The position numbers and the translations under genes are program-made. From Spirochaetales bacterium (GTDB lineage: Bacteria > Spirochaetota > Spirochaetia > Sphaerochaetales > Sphaerochaetaceae): a DNA stretch of 64,000 nucleotides. Each line of letters begins with the position of its first letter. Position 1 is the first letter of the stretch. Where the stretch lies: positions 1 to 64,000 of the forward strand of contig JAHDQJ010000013.1 in the NCBI GenBank assembly GCA_018433865.1, written 5' to 3'. Below the pieces are notes generated by a model that worked only from the letters and a program-made list of their open reading frames with translations, was not told the origin of the DNA and did not search any database. This document shows positions 51,624 through 61,840 of this stretch, piece after piece.

Positions 51624-52532
51624 ATGGATTCACATATATTCCTTGGTATCGACATTGGTGGTACCAAGACCTCCATCAGCATTGGTGATGATTCGGGAAG
51701 ACTCTTGGGAAAACGCAAGTTTTCCACGCGATCGGGGGTGGATTCGGTAGTCTCAGACTGTCACCGTGAGATATCACTGCTTCTTCAGGAAGTCAATCTC
51801 GCATGCTTTGATGCGATCGGCATCTCCTGCGGCGGACCTCTTGACAGCAAGCTGGGAATCATCCAATCCCCGCCGAACCTCCCCGGCTGGGATGACATCC
51901 CGATTGTCAAGATATTCGAGGAATGCTACCACGTTCCGGTGTATCTTGAGAATGATGCGAACGCATGCGCGCTTGCCGAGTGGTATTGGGGCAATGGAAG
52001 GGGAAGCGATTCAATCATCTTCCTCACCTTTGGTACCGGCTTGGGAGCCGGTCTCATACTCGATGGCAAGTTGTATCGTGGAACTAGCGGGCTCGCCGGC
52101 GAAATCGGTCATTGGCGGATGGCGGATGATGGTCCCTACTGTTACTACAAGAGAGGTTCGTGGGAGAGTTTTTGCAGCGGTTCGGGCATTGCAGGATTAT
52201 ATGAACAGGTCACAGGCAAACGGTTGAGCGCCAAGGATGTGTGTGAAGCAGCGAAGTCCGGGGAGGTACATGCCGTGCAAGTCATCGATGAGAGCGCACG
52301 CATGCTCGGTGTAGGTCTTGCGCTCCTAGTCGACCTGCTCAATCCTCAGACGATCATCATCGGCAGTATTTATACGCGGGATGAAGAGCTGTTCAAGCCC
52401 CTGATGGACCGAGTGATGCTCGAGGAGACGTTGTCCATTGCCTACCGTGATTGCACAGTGCTTCCGTCATTGCTTGGAGAGCAGCTGGGAGACATGGCCG
52501 CGCTTGGAATCGCGATGGAACGGTATGCATGA
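51624..52532 (+). CDS. ROK-family sugar kinase
   Basis: A 302-residue kinase with the phosphate-binding motif GIDIGGTKTS at residues 8-17, substrate-binding ENDANACALAEW, and the second phosphate loop TFGTGLGAGLILDG. The conserved zinc-site His is H163 (EIGHWRM). The Cys cluster that normally follows (CxCGxxGCxE) is replaced by CYYKRGSWESFCSGSG, so structural zinc binding is doubtful. It probably phosphorylates a hexose such as glucose or an N-acylhexosamine released after epimerisation. It is tightly placed after the permeases. Confidence 0.9.
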   Translation: MDSHIFLGIDIGGTKTSISIGDDSGRLLGKRKFSTRSGVDSVVSDCHREISLLLQEVNLACFDAIGISCGGPLDSKLGIIQSPPNLPGWDDIPIVKIFEECYHVPVYLENDANACALAEWYWGNGRGSDSIIFLTFGTGLGAGLILDGKLYRGTSGLAGEIGHWRMADDGPYCYYKRGSWESFCSGSGIAGLYEQVTGKRLSAKDVCEAAKSGEVHAVQVIDESARMLGVGLALLVDLLNPQTIIIGSIYTRDEELFKPLMDRVMLEETLSIAYRDCTVLPSLLGEQLGDMAALGIAMERYA

Positions 52533-52546
52533 AGGAGAGAATAGCC

Positions 52547-53197
52547 ATGAATACATTGCATGAAGACATACGATTCTCACTTGCAGATCTGTTGAATCGG
52601 TATCCTGCACTCGTGTGTATCGAATCAACCCTGCAGGACGCCTATCGATTACTACTGGACGCAGCCTATTCCCGGCACAAGTTCTTGGTCGCAGGAAACG
52701 GTGGAAGCGCTTCTGATGCTGAGCATATCGTTGGTGAGTTGATGAAATCGTTCGTGCGTAGCCGGCCGATCGACAAGACAGTGCAAGAGAATCTAGTCAT
52801 GTTCGACCCTGACCTTGGAAGCGTGATCGCCTCCCGGTTGCAAGGGGCTCTTCCAGCGATCTGCCTCTCCAGTCATCAGGCACTCAACACGGCATTTGCA
52901 AATGATGTAGATCCCTCGTTGGCTTATGCACAGCAAGTATATGGATACGGGGAGGCCGGTGATCTTTTTTGGGGTATCTCCACCTCTGGGAATGCAAAAA
53001 ATGTCCTGCAAGCCGCGTTGGTGGCGAAGGCCATGGGGATGCGGGTATTTGGCATGACCGGTGAGCATGGAGGTGCATTGAAAGCGCTCTGCGATGTATG
53101 CCTCCAGGTACCCGAGCGAGAGACCTATAAAATTCAGGAATTGCACCTTCCCATCTACCATTGGCTCTGTATCGCTCTTGAACAATCGTTCTGGTAG
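52547..53197 (+). CDS. SIS-domain sugar-phosphate isomerase, GmhA-like
   Basis: The 216-residue protein matches sedoheptulose-7-phosphate isomerase (GmhA/LpcA) in length and motif: FLVAGNGGSASDAEHIVGEL (residues 46-65), FANDVDPSLAYAQQVYGYGEAGDLFWGISTSGNAKNV and a C-terminal HLPIYHWLCIALEQ. GGAGAGAATAGCC precedes the ATG at 52547; an earlier in-frame ATG lies before that ribosome site. GmhA feeds heptose biosynthesis, and the kinase-phosphatase fusion six genes upstream resembles the next steps. Placement in a LacI-controlled uptake operon instead argues for a catabolic isomerase of the same fold. Confidence 0.88.
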   Translation: MNTLHEDIRFSLADLLNRYPALVCIESTLQDAYRLLLDAAYSRHKFLVAGNGGSASDAEHIVGELMKSFVRSRPIDKTVQENLVMFDPDLGSVIASRLQGALPAICLSSHQALNTAFANDVDPSLAYAQQVYGYGEAGDLFWGISTSGNAKNVLQAALVAKAMGMRVFGMTGEHGGALKALCDVCLQVPERETYKIQELHLPIYHWLCIALEQSFW

Positions 53198-53207
53198 GAG
53201 GATCGCC

Positions 53208-53924
53208 ATGCAATTGCTTCCCGGCTTATATCAAGTGGGCTCAAGTCTCTCTGGTCTCACCTCCGATCAAGTGGCTGGTCCCTTCGACGACTGCAATGTC
53301 TATGCGCTGGACCTCGTGTCGGAGATCGTCCTGATCGATTGCGGGAATGGGGATTCATGGCCTGAGATTGAACGGAACATGCGCATGTGGAGTCTCGATT
53401 CGTCAAGGATATCTACAGTTTTGCTCACTCATCCGCACTATGACCATGCCAATGCAGCTCATCTGTTGAAGGCACGTAATGTACAGATAATTGCACACTC
53501 CTATACCGCTGATGCACTGCGCACAGGGGATGAGCGGTGTTGCGGCTTCCTCTATCATCGGTCGTTTGTTCCGGTGGAAGCGGATTGTATGGTAGAAGAT
53601 GGTGACACGCTTACCTTTGGTACCATAACGGTACAATGTCTTCACCTTCCGGGGCATACCCTCGGATGCACCGCGTTTTTGGTATCTTGGAACGATAATC
53701 GGGTACTTTTCAGTGGAGATGTGATTGGAACGTTGGGCTATGGACACTTCGGGTGGAGCGGTTCGATTGATTTCGACCGGAAGGCATATCTTCAGTCACT
53801 ACGCAGGCTCGCGAAGCTCGATTTCGATGTCATGTTGCCCGGTCATGGTCTTTGTTCATTTAAGAATCCACGTGCTCGTGTCGAAACCAGCCTCAACGAG
53901 GCACTGATGCAATGGAGGTATTGA
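53208..53924 (+). CDS. Metallo-beta-lactamase-fold hydrolase (glyoxalase II-like branch)
   Basis: The 238-residue enzyme has the motif THPHYDH (H75, H77, D79, H80), a third-ligand strand LHLPGHTLGCTAFLV, the bridging Asp in VLFSGDVIG, and a final MLPGHGLC. This complete set binds two metals. GGTAGGAGGATCGCC precedes the start. It has no clear relation to the RNase Z-like MBL protein of the TTT operon. A role hydrolysing a lactone, ester or thioester intermediate is plausible; no specific substrate can be named. Confidence 0.88.
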   Translation: MQLLPGLYQVGSSLSGLTSDQVAGPFDDCNVYALDLVSEIVLIDCGNGDSWPEIERNMRMWSLDSSRISTVLLTHPHYDHANAAHLLKARNVQIIAHSYTADALRTGDERCCGFLYHRSFVPVEADCMVEDGDTLTFGTITVQCLHLPGHTLGCTAFLVSWNDNRVLFSGDVIGTLGYGHFGWSGSIDFDRKAYLQSLRRLAKLDFDVMLPGHGLCSFKNPRARVETSLNEALMQWRY

Positions 53925-53925
53925 G

Positions 53926-54960
53926 GTGCTGACTTCAAAGGAACGGGTAAAGCTTGCGCTGCAGAAAAGACCGGTGGACCGTATCCCGGTAAGCCTCTGG
54001 ATGCATCCGCAGACTTCGCAGGCTCTTATGGAACACTTTGGTGTCGATAAGGATGCACTCGATGATATCTTGCTGCAGGATGTGCGCCAGATTTGGGTGA
54101 ACAACAACTTTGCCATGGAAGGAATCGTTCATGAGCATGATGGAGAGGGGCATATCGACGAGTGGGGAGTACACTGGGAGAGGCAGCATGGATTCAACCA
54201 GATCAAGGAATCTCCATTCTCTTTGAGTAGTGCCCGAGAGATCGATGGAAGTGCATTCCCTTACGACAAGCTGGAACACCTGATGCAACCGATGGCTACT
54301 CTTGCTTCAAAGAGTTCACGATACTTCCTTGGCTGTGACGTTTCTCCCTGTGGGTTCGAACTCTTCTCACGCATGCGCGGGATGGAGGAGGCCCTTCTCG
54401 ATCTTGCGCTTGATTCCGAAGGTGCAGCCAGTGCAATAGGCGAGTGCTTGGAATTCTCCATTTTCCTGGCCAAAGAAGCGGTGAAACGGTTCGAGTTGGA
54501 TTGGCTATGGACCGGCGATGATGTGGCGGGACAACAAGGGATGCTCATGAGTCCAGAAATGTGGCGACGTTTGATCAAGCCCGGGCTTGCGAAGCTCTTC
54601 GCTGTTGGGAAGGAACGAGGATTGCCTGTCGCTTATCATTGTTGTGGAGCATTGCGACCGATCATCGGCGATTTGATCGATATCGGGCTCGACGTGTTGC
54701 ATCCGATCCAACCGAACTGTCCGGGGATGGATCCGGCATCGTTGAAACAGGAGTTCGGCAAGGATCTCGCGTTCATCGGAGGTCTCGATACTCAAAACCT
54801 GATCCCAAATGCCAGTGCACATGAAGTAAGGGAAGAGACCAAGCGCTTGATCGATATCATGACAAGTGACGGGGGAGGTTACATACTAGCTGCCTCACAT
54901 ACCGTCCCCCCAGAAACTCCGCTTGAGAACATCCTGGCGATCTATGATGCAATAGGGTGA
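53926..54960 (+). CDS. Uroporphyrinogen-decarboxylase family protein
   Basis: The 344-residue protein starts at a GTG (MLTSKERVKLALQKRPVDRIPV) with GGAGG nearby. It shows the full metal-type motif LPVAYHCCGALRP (H238, C240) and the distal ILAASHTVPPETPLENILAI, where His occupies the position of the third Cys ligand of MtaA. WLWTGDDVAGQQGMLMSPEMWRRLIKP is typical of the COG0407 group. It begins one base after the MBL gene's stop and ends the operon. This is the sixth URO-D-like gene in the window and the third sugar locus to contain one. Confidence 0.83.
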   Translation: MLTSKERVKLALQKRPVDRIPVSLWMHPQTSQALMEHFGVDKDALDDILLQDVRQIWVNNNFAMEGIVHEHDGEGHIDEWGVHWERQHGFNQIKESPFSLSSAREIDGSAFPYDKLEHLMQPMATLASKSSRYFLGCDVSPCGFELFSRMRGMEEALLDLALDSEGAASAIGECLEFSIFLAKEAVKRFELDWLWTGDDVAGQQGMLMSPEMWRRLIKPGLAKLFAVGKERGLPVAYHCCGALRPIIGDLIDIGLDVLHPIQPNCPGMDPASLKQEFGKDLAFIGGLDTQNLIPNASAHEVREETKRLIDIMTSDGGGYILAASHTVPPETPLENILAIYDAIG

Positions 54961-55039: not shown

Positions 55040-55768
55040 TTATTCGTAACTTCTGATGTTTCTTCTTTCGTAGTAGTCCTTCAGAACGATTTCGATGCTC
55101 CCGATATGATCAGACATGCTCTGAACAGCTTCTCTGTGCTCATGCTTGATCAGATGTTCGAAAATTTGTTCATGGTAATGCATGGAATCGGGGAGCAGTG
55201 CAGGAATTTCGCTGAACGCTTCCATCATGAATTGTTCAAGCAAAGCCTGGATATCCTTGAGCATACGAAGCAGATAACGGTTGTGGGAGGCGTTTGCAAG
55301 GTGAAAGTGGAAGGCCATGTCACTCTTCAGATAAGCTGTCCGGTCCTGTCTCTTCAAGGCTCTCTCCATGGTCGCGATGTCTTTTTTCAATTTCTCGATA
55401 TCTTCCTTGGTGATCCGATTCACACTTGCCTTCACGATTGTTATTTCAAGACACCGTCGTGCTTCGATCAGTTCCAGTGTTGCCTTTGCATCAGATAGCA
55501 GGGGGGCTTCAACCTTCATGTCCCACAGTGACGGATCTCCTGCGATGATGTGTGTCCCGACACCAGGTTTTTCTACAATTACACCCATCTGTGACAATCT
55601 CTGCATCGCCTCTCGCAAGGGTAACCTACTGACACCTAACTGCGTGGCAAAATCATTTTGGTTAGGTAACTTACTCCCTTCCTGTAATTCTCCGGAGATA
55701 AGCATTCGTTTGATCTCATCGATTACATAGTCCGAGAGCTTTTTCTTCGCGGATGAAATTTTAGCCAT
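55040..55768 (-). CDS. GntR-family regulator, FadR/FCD subfamily
   Basis: This 242-residue regulator has a winged helix (VIDEIKRMLISGELQEGSKLPNQNDFATQLGVSRLPLREAMQRL) and a C-terminal helical FCD effector domain. The metal-binding FCD residues are visible in DMAFHFHLANASHN and in later His residues (SMSDHIGSIE). The start at 55768 was chosen over an upstream ATG because it begins just before the winged helix and follows GGAGAGAAAAG. It is divergent from the TRAP operon and probably binds the ATATCA-CA-TGATAT element inside that operon's promoter. FCD regulators commonly sense organic or sugar acids. Confidence 0.92.
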   Translation of the reverse strand: MAKISSAKKKLSDYVIDEIKRMLISGELQEGSKLPNQNDFATQLGVSRLPLREAMQRLSQMGVIVEKPGVGTHIIAGDPSLWDMKVEAPLLSDAKATLELIEARRCLEITIVKASVNRITKEDIEKLKKDIATMERALKRQDRTAYLKSDMAFHFHLANASHNRYLLRMLKDIQALLEQFMMEAFSEIPALLPDSMHYHEQIFEHLIKHEHREAVQSMSDHIGSIEIVLKDYYERRNIRSYE

Positions 55769-56195
55769 GGTACTCTTTTCTCTCCTATTTTCTCCATTAA
55801 TCATACAAATAGACAAACTGTACGTCAATGAAAATAATGACCAAGTTGTTTTGACTTTCACATGAACCAAGCAATTTGGACTGACTCATCATAAAAGTCT
55901 GTAAACGAGTAAGATGGAAATATTGATCATGCGAGAAGCATGTATAACTGCAAGTATTATCATAATAAAGAATAAGATTGTTAATATTAGCCTGATGAAT
56001 CATTGAATATGCACTTTGGTTGTTCGATGGAAAACCAATGCTCACGTATATTCAGTGCCCTTTTCGATACTGCACAAAAATTTAGCGGCAAAGCATGAAA
56101 TAGTTGAAAATATGATGTCTAAATAACTATTAAATAAGGAATAATAGAAATCTATCCTTATTTTAAATTCATTTGAAAATTCATGTAAATTGTTT
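55769..56195. other. AT-rich divergent intergenic region
   Basis: This stretch of more than 400 bases separates the GntR gene from the TRAP operon. It is markedly AT-rich and contains no supported gene. It should carry the promoter of the regulator gene, and the operon's promoter lies at its right edge. I see no riboswitch-like structure or tRNA. Confidence 0.6.
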
Positions 56196-56224
56196 TTGAC
56201 GGTTCATATATCACATGATATGAT
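56196..56224 (+). promoter_or_regulatory. Promoter of the TRAP operon with embedded inverted repeat
   Basis: TTGACG (56196-56201), a 17-bp spacer and TATGAT (56219-56224) form a good sigma-70 promoter. ATATCA-CA-TGATAT (56208-56221) lies between and over the -10 box. A repressor on this repeat would exclude RNA polymerase, and the adjacent GntR protein is the obvious candidate. Confidence 0.75.
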
Positions 56225-56267
56225 GATAATACAAATGGAGTCATGACACTCAAAGGAGGCTTTTGTA

Positions 56268-57614
56268 ATGAACCTATACACACTCTTGCAAGCGAAGAAG
56301 GAGGCTGGAACACCCGTTAGAGTCGGTTTGATCGGAACCGGGAAATTTTCTACGATGTATCTCGCCCAAGTTCGGAAAGTTCCCGGTATCCACCTGGTCG
56401 GGGTTGCCGATCTTTCAAGGGAGCGAGCCCTTCAAGCGTTCGCCCGTACTTCATGGCCTGCAGAGTCGATTGCAGCCAAGACACTTGAGGAGGCTGCAAA
56501 GTACGGCACGACCTGTATCCTTCAAGACTCCATGGAACTCATCAAATCTCCTGTAGTGGATATTCTCATTGAAGCGACAGGAAATCCGGAAATAGGTATC
56601 TATCATGCGATGAATTGTTTTGCAAACAAGAAACATATCATCATGGTTAACGTCGAAGCTGATGTGGTTGCCGGGCCACTGCTGGCTGCAAAGGCTAAGG
56701 AAGCAGGCGTAGTCTACTCGCTCGCCTATGGCGACCAGCCTGCTGAGATCTGTGAGATGGTGGATTGGGCTCGTGCCTCGGGATTTGAAGTTGTGGCTGC
56801 CGGTAAAGGGACCAAATATCTGCCGGCGTATCACAAGTCGACACCCGATACGATTTGGAACTACTACGGACTTACAAAAGAGCAAGCTGAGAAGGGTGGC
56901 ATGAATCCCAAGATGTTCAACTCCTTTCTCGACGGAACGAAGTCTGCGATCGAAATGGCTGCAGTTTCAAATGCCACAGGTCTACAGTGCGATCCCGATG
57001 GCCTGAAGTTTCCTCCTTGTGGAGCGGATGATCTACCAAAGATTCTTAAGCCAAAAAGTGAGGGAGGTCAGCTCCACCACTCAGGACAAGTCGAAGTCAT
57101 CTCCAGTGTAGAACGTGATGGACGTCCTGTATATCGTGATCTCCGTTGGGGTGTCTATGTTGTGATCAAAGGGGATTCTCAGTACATGATGAATTGTTAC
57201 AAAGAGTATGGCATGCTGACCGACGATTCCGGACAATATATTTGCCTCTACCGCCCATATCACATGATTGGTCTTGAATTGGGAATTTCAGTTGCATCAA
57301 TCGGTGTTCGTAATGAACCGACCGGTTGTCCAAAGGCGTTCCACTCTGATGTGGTGGCGACAGCAAAACGTGATCTTGCCGCAGGAGAGACTCTTGATGG
57401 TGAAGGCGGGTACACGGTCTACGGAAAACTGATGCGGGCAAGCAACAGCTTGCGGCTTGGAGGAGTCCCGTTAGGGTTGTGTAGCAACGTGAAACTGATC
57501 AAGCCAGTGAAAGAGGGTGCTCCGGTGTGTTGGAGTGACATAGAATACGACAGTACGAATTATGCGATCAAAGTGCGCAAGGAAATGGAAGCACTGTACG
57601 CATATACCGTATGA
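56268..57614 (+). CDS. COG4091-type NAD(P)-dependent dehydrogenase with SAF domain
   Basis: The 448-residue protein has a Rossmann domain with VRVGLIGTGKFSTMYLAQV near residues 17-36 and a homoserine-dehydrogenase-like middle. SAF-type elements follow in its last 80 residues (RDLAAGETLDGEGGYTVYGKL, GLCSNVKLIKPVKEGAPV). This architecture is the predicted homoserine dehydrogenase COG4091. In a TRAP operon with a transaldolase it more likely acts on a hydroxy or sugar acid than on homoserine. CAAAGGAGGC precedes the start. It is the first gene of the operon. Confidence 0.82.
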   Translation: MNLYTLLQAKKEAGTPVRVGLIGTGKFSTMYLAQVRKVPGIHLVGVADLSRERALQAFARTSWPAESIAAKTLEEAAKYGTTCILQDSMELIKSPVVDILIEATGNPEIGIYHAMNCFANKKHIIMVNVEADVVAGPLLAAKAKEAGVVYSLAYGDQPAEICEMVDWARASGFEVVAAGKGTKYLPAYHKSTPDTIWNYYGLTKEQAEKGGMNPKMFNSFLDGTKSAIEMAAVSNATGLQCDPDGLKFPPCGADDLPKILKPKSEGGQLHHSGQVEVISSVERDGRPVYRDLRWGVYVVIKGDSQYMMNCYKEYGMLTDDSGQYICLYRPYHMIGLELGISVASIGVRNEPTGCPKAFHSDVVATAKRDLAAGETLDGEGGYTVYGKLMRASNSLRLGGVPLGLCSNVKLIKPVKEGAPVCWSDIEYDSTNYAIKVRKEMEALYAYTV

Positions 57615-57625
57615 GAGGAGAGAGT

Positions 57626-58651
57626 ATGAACTATTTGCAACGTGTCCATGCCGAGACGAAGACGAGGTATTGGGTGAATAACCCGACAATCGCCGAATGT
57701 GACGATGCCGTCGCACAGGGTGCGTATGCGTGTACCACCAACCCTGCATATTGTTCCAAATTGTTCCAGACTGATCCTGAATATATAGGAAAGGTCATCA
57801 CAACAGTGCTCAAGAAGGAACGAAATGTGAGCATGGCTGCTGAAAAGGTGTACCACCTGATTGCGAAGGATCTTATGGATCGGTTTCTCCCCGTAAACGC
57901 GAATTCCGGTGGTAAAGCGGGTTTTGTAACTATTCAAGAGGATCCCAGGCGAGAGGAGGATCATGCATATATCCTTGAAGCCTCGCTTCGGGCCAAGGCA
58001 CTTGGGCCCAACTACATGGCTAAGATTCCTGTGACCGAACAAGGATTGAAAGTGATTGCCGAGATGGTAAAGCATGACATCCCTATCTGTGCAACAGAGG
58101 TGTTTTCCCTTTCCCAAGCAGTTGTTGTTTATGAGCTGTATCAAGAGAGTGTGAAGAAATATGGTAAAAAACCACCTATCTACATCACCCACATCACTGG
58201 GATCATGGATCAATACTTCAAGGAATTGGTGGCCAAGGAATCGGTAAAGATCTCAAAGGAAGCTCTTGAGCTGGCCGGTACGGTGATAGGTCTACGTGAA
58301 TATCGTATGTTCCGCGAGAGAGGATATGATACGACAATGCTCGGCGGAGGTGCACGAGGACTGCATCACTTCACCAATTTCGTGGGCGGGGATATGCACG
58401 TGACGATCAACTGGAGCACCGCGCTCGAGTTGAATGCCTCGCTATCCGCTGCGGTGCCGATGATCGATCGTCAGATTCCCGATTCGATCGTCGACGAGTT
58501 GCTCGAGAAATTGCCTAACTTCAAGCGGGCTTATGAGCTTGACGGCATGGAGGTTGAAGAGTTTGCCGACTATGGTCCGGTCATGCTCTTCAGGACCCAA
58601 TTCATGAACGGTTATTCACGGTTGATCGATGGTATCCATCTCGCAAAATAA
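57626..58651 (+). CDS. Transaldolase-family protein
   Basis: The 341-residue TIM barrel carries the Schiff-base lysine K133 in NYMAKIPVTEQGLKVI and the following strand PICATEVFSLSQAVVVYEL, both diagnostic of class I transaldolases. DAVAQGAYACTTNP is the N-terminal catalytic-Asp region. ATG 57626 follows GAGAGGAGAGAGT. It would transfer or cleave a three-carbon (dihydroxyacetone) unit. Its position between a dehydrogenase and a TRAP importer suggests aldol cleavage or condensation of the oxidised substrate rather than a housekeeping pentose-phosphate role. Confidence 0.88.
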   Translation: MNYLQRVHAETKTRYWVNNPTIAECDDAVAQGAYACTTNPAYCSKLFQTDPEYIGKVITTVLKKERNVSMAAEKVYHLIAKDLMDRFLPVNANSGGKAGFVTIQEDPRREEDHAYILEASLRAKALGPNYMAKIPVTEQGLKVIAEMVKHDIPICATEVFSLSQAVVVYELYQESVKKYGKKPPIYITHITGIMDQYFKELVAKESVKISKEALELAGTVIGLREYRMFRERGYDTTMLGGGARGLHHFTNFVGGDMHVTINWSTALELNASLSAAVPMIDRQIPDSIVDELLEKLPNFKRAYELDGMEVEEFADYGPVMLFRTQFMNGYSRLIDGIHLAK

Positions 58652-58665
58652 TTGGAGGAAAGGTT

Positions 58666-59709
58666 ATGAGAACTAGTGGTGTAAGGAATGTATTGCTCGT
58701 ATTATTGATTGCCATTGTCATGGTATTTGCTGTATCGTGCAGCAAGAAAGCGGAACCTCAGGCAGCTGCCGGAACTGCAACACAGGCAAAGTCAGTGGAA
58801 AAGATCGTGCTGAAGTTCGGAGGGGTGAACAACTCTACTCACCCTGCAATAAGGGCGATGAACGAAGTGTTCAAGCCGCGTGTAGAAGAGCTTACCGGAG
58901 GCAGGGTCGAAGTTCAGGTTTTCGACAACGCACAGCTCGGTGGTGAGCGTGACATGATGGAACAACTCCAGGCAGGCGTTCTCCATATGGCATACATCAG
59001 CCCGATCTTTGCAACGGTTGACCCGGCAATCAACGTAATGGACTTGCCGTTCCTTTTCGCTGATGCCGCTCACGTTGACAAGGTCATTGATGGCGGAATC
59101 GGCATGGATCTTCTGAAGGACCTCCCCGCGAAGGGCTTGGTTCCTCTTGCCTATTATGAGAACGGATTCCGTGTAGTAACCAACTCTCGAAAACCGATCG
59201 TTTCCCTCGCAGATCTGAAGGGCATGAAGATCAGAACTCCCGAAGCTCCCATTTCCGTGGCAATTTTCAGTGCACTCGGAGCAAATGTTACTCCGCTCTC
59301 ATTTGGTGAACTCTACAGTGCCTTGCAACAAAAGGTTGTCGATGGACAGGAAAATGCGTACAACACCGTCGCTTCTTCCCGTTTTTTCGAAGTCCAGAAG
59401 TATGTTACCGAGACCAACCATATGTGGGGAGCCTATGTTGTCATGGCTAGCGGCAAGTGGTGGAATACCATCGATAAAGAAGCACAGGAAGCAATCCGTT
59501 CGGCAGCACTTGAATCCAGCAAATATCAACGTGAATTGTTCCGTTCTCAAACTGCTGATAGCAAGAAAATGGCTGTTGACGGTGGCATGGAAGTCTCGCT
59601 TCCGAACATTGAAGAATTCAGGGCAGCCGTATCCACAGTGTATGATAATTTCTACAAGCAGTACCCTCAATACAAGCAGATTGTCGAACAGATTCAGGCA
59701 CTCCGCTGA
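58666..59709 (+). CDS. TRAP transporter substrate-binding protein (DctP family)
   Basis: A 347-residue lipoprotein receptor (signal MRTSGVRNVLLVLLIAIVM, then FAVSC with Cys25). The DctP fold shows LKFGGVNNSTHPAIRAMNEVFKPRVEELTGGRVEVQVF, GGERDMMEQLQAGVLHMAYIS and LADLKGMKIRTPEAP, where the last Arg binds the ligand carboxylate. LQQKVVDGQENAYNTVASSRFFEVQKYV is also typical. It binds an organic or sugar acid and delivers it to the DctQM pair encoded next. Confidence 0.94.
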   Translation: MRTSGVRNVLLVLLIAIVMVFAVSCSKKAEPQAAAGTATQAKSVEKIVLKFGGVNNSTHPAIRAMNEVFKPRVEELTGGRVEVQVFDNAQLGGERDMMEQLQAGVLHMAYISPIFATVDPAINVMDLPFLFADAAHVDKVIDGGIGMDLLKDLPAKGLVPLAYYENGFRVVTNSRKPIVSLADLKGMKIRTPEAPISVAIFSALGANVTPLSFGELYSALQQKVVDGQENAYNTVASSRFFEVQKYVTETNHMWGAYVVMASGKWWNTIDKEAQEAIRSAALESSKYQRELFRSQTADSKKMAVDGGMEVSLPNIEEFRAAVSTVYDNFYKQYPQYKQIVEQIQALR

Positions 59710-59758
59710 TATACTGGGGAATAGGCACAAGTATATCTAAGTAAGGAGGTAAGGGAAG

Positions 59759-60280
59759 ATGAAGGTAGGATTACTATATGAACGGGTGGCGATGGTATTG
59801 AAACGGATGCTTGAGGCCTTGGTCATCCTCTCATTTGCCATGATGGTTATCTTGGTTTTCGCGCAAGTGGTAACACGGTATCTTACCGACAATTCCCTTA
59901 CCTGGAGTGAAGAATTGTCTCGATTCATCATGGTATGGATGGTCTACTTGGCTTCAGTGCTCACCTATAATGCACAGCAGCATATTGTGGTTGATGCACT
60001 GATCTCGCAATTGCGAGGACTTGCCAAGACAATTGTCCTCTTGATCAACAAGCTGGCTGTCATGGTTTTCATTGTCTTTGTCATCATAGGTGCTTCACAG
60101 TTCCTGCCGACGACAGCGATCCAGAAATCTCCAGCCAATAGTATCGTGATGGCTCACGTCTATATTGTGATTCCCATCAGTCTTTTCTGTATCGGCATCC
60201 TGAATCTCCGCGATATCGTAATGTTGGTCTGTTCAATTTTCAAAAAGGAAACACCGGTAGGTGAGGAGGTAACCGCATGA
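59759..60280 (+). CDS. TRAP transporter small membrane subunit (DctQ family)
   Basis: The 173-residue membrane protein has four hydrophobic segments (LVILSFAMMVILVFAQVV, FIMVWMVYLASVLTY, IVLLINKLAVMVFIVFVII and VYIVIPISLFCIGIL). The conserved TWSEELSRFIMVW motif sits between the first and second. GTAAGGAGGTAAGG precedes the start. It overlaps DctM by four bases (ATGA). DctQ is required with DctM for sodium-coupled uptake. Confidence 0.94.
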   Translation: MKVGLLYERVAMVLKRMLEALVILSFAMMVILVFAQVVTRYLTDNSLTWSEELSRFIMVWMVYLASVLTYNAQQHIVVDALISQLRGLAKTIVLLINKLAVMVFIVFVIIGASQFLPTTAIQKSPANSIVMAHVYIVIPISLFCIGILNLRDIVMLVCSIFKKETPVGEEVTA

Positions 60281-61539
60281 CGTTCTTCTTGATTACACTC
60301 CTGGCCCTTCTCGCCATCGGAGTTCCCATATTCATTTCACTTGGGCTTGCAGCAACCGTGCTCTGGTTTACCGAGTATCATACCCTTGAGTTTATCATGA
60401 TGTTTCAAAAGATGTTCACTGGAATGGATGTGTTCACATTGATGGCGATTCCTTTCTTCATGCTTGCTGGCGAGCTCATGAATACAGGAGGACTGAGCAA
60501 ACGGCTGGTGAATTTCGCGCAGAAATCGATCGGTTGGGTGCACGGTGGCTTAGGATTCGCTACCGTCCTCTCGAGCATGCTCATTGCAGCGATCCTTGGA
60601 TCGGCATCGGCAAGTGCTGCGATGATCGGTATGATCATGATTCCTGAGATGGTGGACCGTGGGTACAAGGATGATTATTCCGCTGCACTGGTCGCTGCAT
60701 CAGGCGCGATCGGACCGATCATTCCTCCCAGTATCCCGTTGATCATCTACGGAGTGATCGCTCAGTTATCCATATCCAAACTTTTTGCCAGCGGCTACAT
60801 CCCGGGAGTCATGATTGGTGCGTTTTTCATGATCTATAACTATAGATTCGCAAAGAAAAACAAGTATCCTGCTGAGAGCAAACCGACTTTCAAGGAATTC
60901 CTTATCTCTTTCAAGCAAGCATTGTTAACACTATTTCTTCCTGTGATCATCATGGGAGGTATCCTTGGTGGAATTTTCACACCAACCGAAGCTGGTGTCG
61001 TGGCTGTCGTGTATGCCCTGATCATTGGAATGGTGGTGTATCGAGAAATATCTATCAAGGATCTGTTCAAGATTTTCCTGAAGGCAGCGAACAGCAGTGC
61101 CATGATCCTCATGGTGATGGCTGTTGCCTCCTTCCTTTCATGGATATTCACAATGCAACGGATTCCATTCCTGATTTCTGAGTTGATTTTTTCAATCACA
61201 CAGAATCCGTTGGTATTCCTTTTGATAATCAACCTCCTGATGATTGTCGTTGGCATGTTTCTTGATGCAGTTTCTGCGCTGACCGTCATGACTCCCGTGT
61301 TGCTTCCTGTCAGCTTGGCACTGGGTATTGATCCGATTCTCTTCGGAGTCATGATGACAGTAAACTTGAGCATCGGTGTCTTGACACCTCCGGTCGGCTT
61401 GAATCTCTTTGTAACTTCAAGCATCTCAAAGGTAGGAGTACTTCGTATAAGCAAGGCGATCATACCGTTTGCCCTGCTGATTCTTTTGGTACTCTTGCTG
61501 ATGATGTTCGTGCCAAGTATTTTCCTGATCTTCGCTTGA
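60277..61539 (+). CDS. TRAP transporter large membrane subunit (DctM family)
   Basis: The 420-residue protein has about eleven membrane segments. DctM motifs are IPFFMLAGELMNTGGLSKRLVNFA, ASGAIGPIIPPSIPLIIYG, GGIFTPTEAGVVAVVYALIIG and GVLTPPVGLNLFVTSSIS. It overlaps dctQ and ends the operon 20 bases before a terminator-like hairpin. It is the translocation channel for the acid captured by the DctP homologue. Confidence 0.95.
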   Translation: MTFFLITLLALLAIGVPIFISLGLAATVLWFTEYHTLEFIMMFQKMFTGMDVFTLMAIPFFMLAGELMNTGGLSKRLVNFAQKSIGWVHGGLGFATVLSSMLIAAILGSASASAAMIGMIMIPEMVDRGYKDDYSAALVAASGAIGPIIPPSIPLIIYGVIAQLSISKLFASGYIPGVMIGAFFMIYNYRFAKKNKYPAESKPTFKEFLISFKQALLTLFLPVIIMGGILGGIFTPTEAGVVAVVYALIIGMVVYREISIKDLFKIFLKAANSSAMILMVMAVASFLSWIFTMQRIPFLISELIFSITQNPLVFLLIINLLMIVVGMFLDAVSALTVMTPVLLPVSLALGIDPILFGVMMTVNLSIGVLTPPVGLNLFVTSSISKVGVLRISKAIIPFALLILLVLLLMMFVPSIFLIFA

Positions 61540-61559
61540 TCAAGATAATGAATTTCAAA

Positions 61560-61586
61560 CCCCAAGCATAAAATTCGTGCTTGGGG
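61560..61586 (+). terminator. Hairpin at the end of the TRAP operon
   Basis: A perfect 9-bp stem (CCCCAAGCA / TGCTTGGGG) with a 9-base loop lies 20 bases after the DctM stop. No T-run follows, so it may act with Rho or only protect the 3' end. Confidence 0.55.
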
Positions 61587-61840
61587 TATCAGGATATATG
61601 ACAGCCAGGGTATCGTTCTGGTATACAATTCGATGAGTTGTTGTCGCCAACCAACACAATTGCGACATGATAATTTCACATGACGACGTCTGCAGGAGAA
61701 GAATCAACGGAAAAAATGTTGGCCACGAACAAGAACTTGATACGAAGTATATAAAGCGGACACGCTTCCTATCGATTCGATGAGTACGCTGTTCTTACGG
61801 GAAGACATCACGGAACACTGCGAATTTTCCTACATAGTTG
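61587..61840. other. Intergenic, nothing recognised
   Basis: About 250 bases separate the TRAP operon hairpin from the convergent diguanylate cyclase stop. No gene, repeat or structured element could be supported. Confidence 0.5.

Follow-up and report, generated by a model that had tools for sequence, protein, structure and literature searches.

A spirochaete TRAP operon pairs a DLO2-clade dehydrogenase with a non-canonical transaldolase-fold protein, probably to degrade a small sugar acid in few steps

In the known pathway for L-threonate and D-erythronate, LtnD and OtnI lead to 3-oxotetronate, which OtnK and OtnC convert into dihydroxyacetone phosphate (DHAP) by phosphorylation and decarboxylation, while a tetronate bypass employs the fructose-bisphosphate (FBP) aldolase-like enzyme 2-OtnC (PMC12540250). 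The aldolase-family enzymes of this pathway serve as decarboxylases (PMC12540250, PMC10580937). A second relevant system is the DRL family of oxidoreductases, for which a published analysis recognises, besides the isoprenoid enzyme DXR-II, coupling redox chemistry with skeletal rearrangement, the uncharacterised clades DLO1 and DLO2, with a change at T229 given as a trait of the latter (Carretero-Paulet 2013, PMC3847144). The third is the transaldolase (TAL) family, in which engineering of TalB has shown R181 to be important for phosphoryl-group binding (PMC3962226). Here, we describe an operon in a stretch of 64,000 nucleotides (hereafter the window) from contig JAHDQJ010000013.1 of a Spirochaetales bacterium (GCA_018433865.1), in which relatives of the latter two systems are encoded together with a TRAP transporter. 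The operon combines a known transporter type with two enzymes of known superfamilies, both belonging to uncharacterised subfamilies, and probably encodes a short pathway by which a small sugar acid is degraded.

The operon is real, and spans 55,043-61,539 when its divergent GntR/FCD regulator is included. Its five plus-strand genes, for a dehydrogenase, a transaldolase-like protein, DctP, DctQ and DctM, are separated by gaps of at most about 50 nucleotides or overlap, and Shine-Dalgarno-like sequences are present. The original prediction had described a GntR-controlled TRAP operon with a dehydrogenase and a transaldolase-family gene, and all of these genes are present at that place. The pathway that it proposed is supported in part, namely as to acid uptake by TRAP and oxidation by a SAF-domain dehydrogenase, and we agree with it that no kinase, dehydratase or aldolase of the usual types lies within the operon. 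It had also held that the pair is not a recognised module, and a literature search on DLO2 and on the DLO2-transaldolase pair likewise found no characterised pathway, only the 2013 family paper being relevant (PMC3847144). The main text of that paper makes no mention of transaldolase, and its passages on DLO2 contain nothing on TRAP or on OtnK and OtnC.

The dehydrogenase gene (56,268-57,614, plus strand) encodes an NAD(P) oxidoreductase with the domains DRL_cat (PF21135, 213 bits), GFO_IDH_MocA, NAD_binding_3 (Rossmann) and a C-terminal SAF. It had been predicted as a COG4091 dehydrogenase; the COG4091-like character and the SAF domain stand, while its membership of the DXR-II-like DRL family, and of the DLO2 clade within it, had been missed. 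Its sole sequence relatives in the PDB are the Brucella DXR-II structures 3UPL and 3UPY (E 2.4e-66), with 34% aligned identity. The fold family, the lysine of the GKG motif (K191) and R320 are common to both proteins, whereas four sites diagnostic of DXR-II differ in the window protein (E168 to Q, F178 to W, T229 to S and H250 to K, the H250 position being variable among DLO2 proteins). A one-residue insertion after GKG also distinguishes it, so that the position of K193 aligns to T or K, depending on the alignment. Trees place the window protein in the DLO2 clade: it groups with the DLO2 of C. necator N-1, and the DXR-II proteins of Brucella, S. fredii and Listeria fall on the opposite side (support 100/99, in a tree that included no DLO1 sequence); the long-branch DRL of locus L021 (28%) was left out of the second DRL tree. 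Because of this placement and of the diagnostic residues, the window dehydrogenase is assigned to DLO2, the uncharacterised sister clade of DXR-II, and it is like the published clade both in grouping with the C. necator protein and in its change at T229 (PMC3847144).

The genome to which the window belongs possesses a canonical DXR and four DRL proteins, of which the two DXR-II-like ones adjoin FGGY kinases and the two DLO2 proteins adjoin a TAL. One of the DXR-II-like proteins is encoded about 16 kb past the downstream end of the window, together with an ABC sugar transporter, an FGGY kinase and a zinc alcohol dehydrogenase in an operon that looks like one for polyol or sugar catabolism (L007 1460-10124, C31:80459-89123). 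The other is found on C40 (L006), clustered with a zinc alcohol dehydrogenase, two FGGY kinases, a split transketolase, RpiR and an AP2-type isomerase, in this same genome that already has DXR.

The second enzyme gene (57,626-58,651, plus strand) encodes a protein which matches TAL_FSA (PF00923) with only 69 bits. An AlphaFold (AF2) model of it (pLDDT 95) shows the TAL fold, with a VIA-align Z of 35.5 to the transaldolase of N. gonorrhoeae. The Schiff-base lysine, K133 (58,022-58,024), is invariant across 38 aligned relatives, and T37, N39, T157 and an equivalent of R228 (R244) are retained as well. Thus far the protein is alike to TalB and the FSA family in fold and lysine; it differs from them in having Asp17, Phe178 and Arg181 replaced and Glu158 gained. 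The catalytic Asp at the end of strand 1 (TalB Asp17, elsewhere Asp6) corresponds to N18 (57,677-57,679), and the phosphate-site Arg181 of TalB to I193 (58,202-58,204), these being Asn and Ile, respectively, in 38 of 38 relatives. In a structural alignment, residue 13 of the model falls on residue 1 in both FSA and the T. acidophilum TAL, and therefore residue 18 falls on Asp6, provided that strand 1 is ungapped. TalB Phe178 is replaced by an invariant I190, which also provides no match to the Tyr that FSA has at this place, in a stretch where FSA aligned poorly, and TalB Glu96 is replaced by Q104. Conversely, E158 (58,097-58,099) is invariant in the subfamily, whereas TalB, FSA and the outgroups lack it.

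Because the Asp17 and Arg181 positions are Asn and Ile across the subfamily, C3 transfer between sugar phosphates is unlikely, and the C3 transfer by a transaldolase that had been predicted for this protein is not supported. By contrast, Schiff-base chemistry with an unphosphorylated keto acid as substrate is not unlikely. The better Pfam match to transaldolase in the window genome is another gene, on C29 (122 bits), which retains the GR motif. The sulfofructose transaldolase BmSF-TAL (8BC2) likewise has a TAL fold that matches the window protein, and acts on a substrate that carries an acid group where the phosphate would be, but only a core of about 200 residues aligns (Z 21.5, 19% identity) and the operon is devoid of sulfoglycolysis genes. 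Plasmid TAL matches from Shinella and Clavibacter were rejected as relatives, since they belong to other TAL subfamilies with the GR/SR motif retained.

The combination of DLO2, TRAP and TAL recurs in other genomes carrying the pair, a comparison that the original prediction had proposed, and a second cluster in the spirochaete's own genome had been missed. This cluster (L008 7766-13295, C18:87765-93294) has the order DctP-DctM-DctQ-DLO2-TAL with an AraC-type regulator, its DLO2 and TAL being 50% and 35% identical to those of the window, and a cluster of the same type is present in a genome of the same genus. A metagenome-assembled genome (MAG) of Christensenella has GntR-DLO2-TAL, with 61% identity to the window for each of the two enzymes. 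The planctomycete MAG G346 has GntR-DLO2-DctP-DctQ-DctM (DLO2 71%, DctP 63%, DctQ 51%, DctM 74%), and its TAL (60%) is unlinked, on a different contig. Among 294 planctomycete genomes, DLO2 (E <= 1e-100) occurs in 2 and window-type TAL (E <= 1e-50) in 4, and both DLO2 genomes are within the TAL set (hypergeometric probability about 1.4e-4, the two DLO2 genomes being related to each other); among 345 spirochaete genomes, 2 have DLO2 and 9 have TAL, and the former two likewise belong to the TAL set. The DRL-linked TALs appear in three places of the TAL tree, and the TAL-linked DLO2s form two separate clades of the DLO2 tree. Because of the latter, the pairing, as far as the trees tell, is not one frozen linkage, having either formed more than once or been retained while others lost it.

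TAL relatives elsewhere pair with Iso_dh dehydrogenases, a family whose known reactions yield keto acids that lose CO2, and they adjoin four kinds of acid transporter (TRAP, TTT, GntP and MFS). The window genome itself contains an operon of a TTT transporter, an Iso_dh-family dehydrogenase and a TAL (L013, C11:4000-20000), and at a distance of 11 kb the contig also carries a dihydroxyacetone kinase gene. Other non-canonical TALs, in spirochaetes, Anaerolineae and Bacillota, are clustered with a split transketolase and an Asp/Glu-racemase-like protein, usually together with TRAP, a cupin and an FCD regulator (L022, L026, L028, L031, L032, L034, L036 and others), a combination for which we know of no described pathway. 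On alphaproteobacterial plasmids, a conserved cluster comprises DLO2, an ABM-domain protein, a GarR-like protein and DctPQM (L063, L069, L070 and L075), with gluconokinase in two of them.

The link between DLO2 and the tetronate pathway comes from the planctomycete MAGs G346 and G347, both of which have the gene order OtnK-OtnC-DLO2-DctP-DctQ-DctM, with DLO2 at 55-56% identity. In G346, OtnK matches the 3-oxo-tetronate kinase family NF043035 with 527 bits (cut-off 350) and OtnC matches NF043034 with 295 bits (cut-off 250). No homologue of LtnD or OtnI was seen at these two clusters, the G346 contig starting just upstream. The OtnK-linked DLO2 and the TAL-linked DLO2 from the second cluster of the window genome are sisters (support 97/97). 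The window operon differs from the tetronate pathway in lacking the kinase, the isomerase, LtnD and OtnC, with the TAL-fold protein in their place; OtnK has no match in the whole window genome (99.9% complete), which contains two DhaK (dihydroxyacetone kinase) proteins and two GarR-family (PF14833) proteins. The original prediction had not recognised the route from known tetronate, pentonate or uronate pathways; this holds insofar as no characterised pathway was found, but enzymes of the tetronate pathway accompany a related DLO2, and the relation is closer than had been assumed. D-apionate oxidoisomerase was also considered as the function of DLO2 and was rejected, as OtnK gives much better matches to the linked kinases than OiaK does.

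The transporter genes form a complete TRAP set on the plus strand, consisting of the solute-binding protein (SBP) DctP with a lipobox-like N-terminus (VSC; 58,666-59,709, PF03480, 300 bits), the small permease DctQ (59,759-60,280, PF04290, 82 bits) and the large permease DctM (60,277-61,539, PF06808, 410 bits). The solved SBPs closest to the window DctP are 4P47, 7BBR, 4X8R, 4NQ8, 4N8Y, 4PDD and 4P9K, and those named C4-dicarboxylate-binding DctP (9DTL, 9HT3) rank below them. Proteins that bind uronates, aldonates, erythronate or pantoate are presumably among the closest solved relatives. DctPs from the DLO2 clusters of Agrobacterium and Chelatococcus match the same mixed set of solved SBPs, which is not decisive for the substrate.

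Taken at its broadest, our claim is that an unphosphorylated sugar acid is oxidised by DLO2 and then undergoes C-C cleavage through a Schiff base on the TAL-fold protein, which we consider fairly probable. For the narrower reading, namely catabolism of a small polyhydroxy-monocarboxylate by the products of the operon, the acid being most likely C4 (erythronate or threonate) or a close analogue and its beta-keto acid being cleaved mostly by decarboxylation, we would give a probability of about 0.4; this and the other likelihoods attached to our proposals are judgements, not computations. In such a pathway, the acid would be imported by DctPQM, and DLO2 with NAD(P)+ would oxidise it to a beta-keto acid, e.g., 3-oxotetronate. 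K133 of the TAL-fold protein would form a Schiff base with the keto group, and the unphosphorylated keto acid would be cleaved, most likely with loss of CO2, as the residue losses and the swapping of enzymes suggest. On chemical grounds, decarboxylation of 3-oxotetronate on the lysine should give the same dihydroxyacetone-enamine as arises in transaldolase, requiring neither the Asp17-dependent retro-aldol step nor a phosphate site. Dihydroxyacetone would then be released and phosphorylated by a product of one of the two DhaK genes present in the genome. The net effect would be the job done by OtnK and OtnC in the tetronate pathway, without early phosphorylation. Because the closest enzyme swap of DLO2 is with OtnK and OtnC, the simplest reading would be that DLO2 alone carries out the formation of the 3-oxo acid in a direct step, with TAL taking the place of these two enzymes. 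In its most specific form, in which the TAL subfamily is a Schiff-base beta-keto-acid decarboxylase and DLO2 a direct 3-dehydrogenase, giving a kinase-free two-enzyme route from tetronate to dihydroxyacetone that replaces LtnD, OtnI, OtnK and OtnC, we hold the proposal to be possible and rather doubtful.

Several observations weigh against decarboxylation of a C4 acid. Many TAL relatives are clustered with the split transketolase, the racemase-like protein and TRAP, which suggests that these act on substrates longer than C4. The alphaproteobacterial DLO2 clusters have no TAL, and their ABM-domain protein, tartronate-semialdehyde-reductase-like enzyme and occasional gluconokinase fit a C5/C6 acid at least as well, while further DLO2 clusters carry IlvD/EDD dehydratases. 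With the exception of G346, the window DctP is only 25-39% identical to the DctPs of the other DLO2 clusters compared, and therefore the substrate need not be common to them. Locus L021 has a TAL beside OtnK and OtnC, so that TAL is not always a replacement; LtnD or OtnI might lie beyond the G346 contig start, upstream of the OtnK-OtnC-DLO2 cluster, and MAGs might include contaminating contigs.

Among the rival explanations, one is a retro-aldolase, in which case DLO2 would oxidise an aldonate-type acid of C5 or C6, and the TAL-fold protein, as an unphosphorylated dihydroxyacetone aldolase, would yield dihydroxyacetone and glyoxylate or tartronate semialdehyde. The loss of the phosphate Arg suits any unphosphorylated substrate, tartronate-semialdehyde-reductase-like enzymes and gluconokinase adjoin DLO2 in the alphaproteobacteria, presumed uronate or aldonate binders are among the solved SBPs closest to the window DctP, and the genome has GarR-family and DhaK proteins, two of each. 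Still, we find this somewhat unlikely, as the acid/base Asp of retro-aldol cleavage is the invariant Asn in all 38 relatives, so that E158 would need to take over, and as OtnK and OtnC, with which the closest swap occurs, decarboxylate. A true transaldolase that uses glyceraldehyde 3-phosphate as acceptor for a C3 unit from the oxidised acid, with fructose 6-phosphate as product, would agree with the fold, the Schiff-base lysine and the retained R244; yet Asp17 and the phosphate-binding Arg181 are lost throughout the subfamily and the C29 gene is the better Pfam match to transaldolase, making such a reaction very unlikely. It is also quite unlikely that DLO2 acts as an oxido-isomerase, oxidising and rearranging a branched sugar acid into a linear keto acid for the TAL-fold protein to cleave: homology to DXR-II, which couples redox and rearrangement (PMC3847144), speaks for this, whereas the changes at E168, F178 and T229 and the variable H250 position speak against it, and the OtnK-linked DLO2 points to a linear tetronate. 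Finally, the DRL_cat domain and the identity to the Brucella enzyme might suggest a DXR-II that supplies 2-C-methyl-D-erythritol 4-phosphate (MEP) for isoprenoids, with the TRAP and TAL genes as unrelated neighbours. This we rejected as having a negligible likelihood, in view of the fully supported position outside the DXR-II clade, the diagnostic residues, the canonical DXR already in the genome and the repeated linkage of DLO2 to TRAP and catabolic enzymes.

The regulator gene (55,043-55,768, minus strand), divergent to the operon, matches GntR with 63 bits and FCD with 85 bits in Pfam. In the consensus scan, a sigma-70-like promoter, TTGACG-17-TATGAT (56,196-56,224, plus strand), matches at 10 of 12 positions, and a hairpin follows the last gene (61,559-61,588, plus strand; -18.9 kcal/mol, z -3.8), which has no U tract and is not among the calls of the terminator scan. 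Both elements had been predicted along with an embedded operator, and the operator does not stand above chance. The palindrome at 56,204-56,223, which overlaps the promoter, is symmetric at only 12 of 20 positions, a value that shuffled AT-rich sequence of the same composition equals or beats, and it has no relative upstream of the homologous operons L047, L102 and L008. An Rfam search gave zero matches near the operon. Just upstream (52,451-54,960), genes for a SIS-domain-like protein, a metallo-beta-lactamase-fold hydrolase and a URO-D-type methyltransferase lie in a row, apparently as a separate operon.

With these findings, DLO2 has a first role that can be put to the test; this branch of the DXR-II family, published as uncharacterised, occurs in proteobacteria, haloarchaea, spirochaetes, Christensenella and planctomycetes. 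They also draw attention to a group of proteins which are likely annotated as transaldolases and yet are without the transaldolase residues. If the decarboxylase reading is true, tetronate breakdown would have recruited a third aldolase-type fold, that of TAL, for decarboxylation, and ATP would be spent on dihydroxyacetone instead of on the sugar acid.

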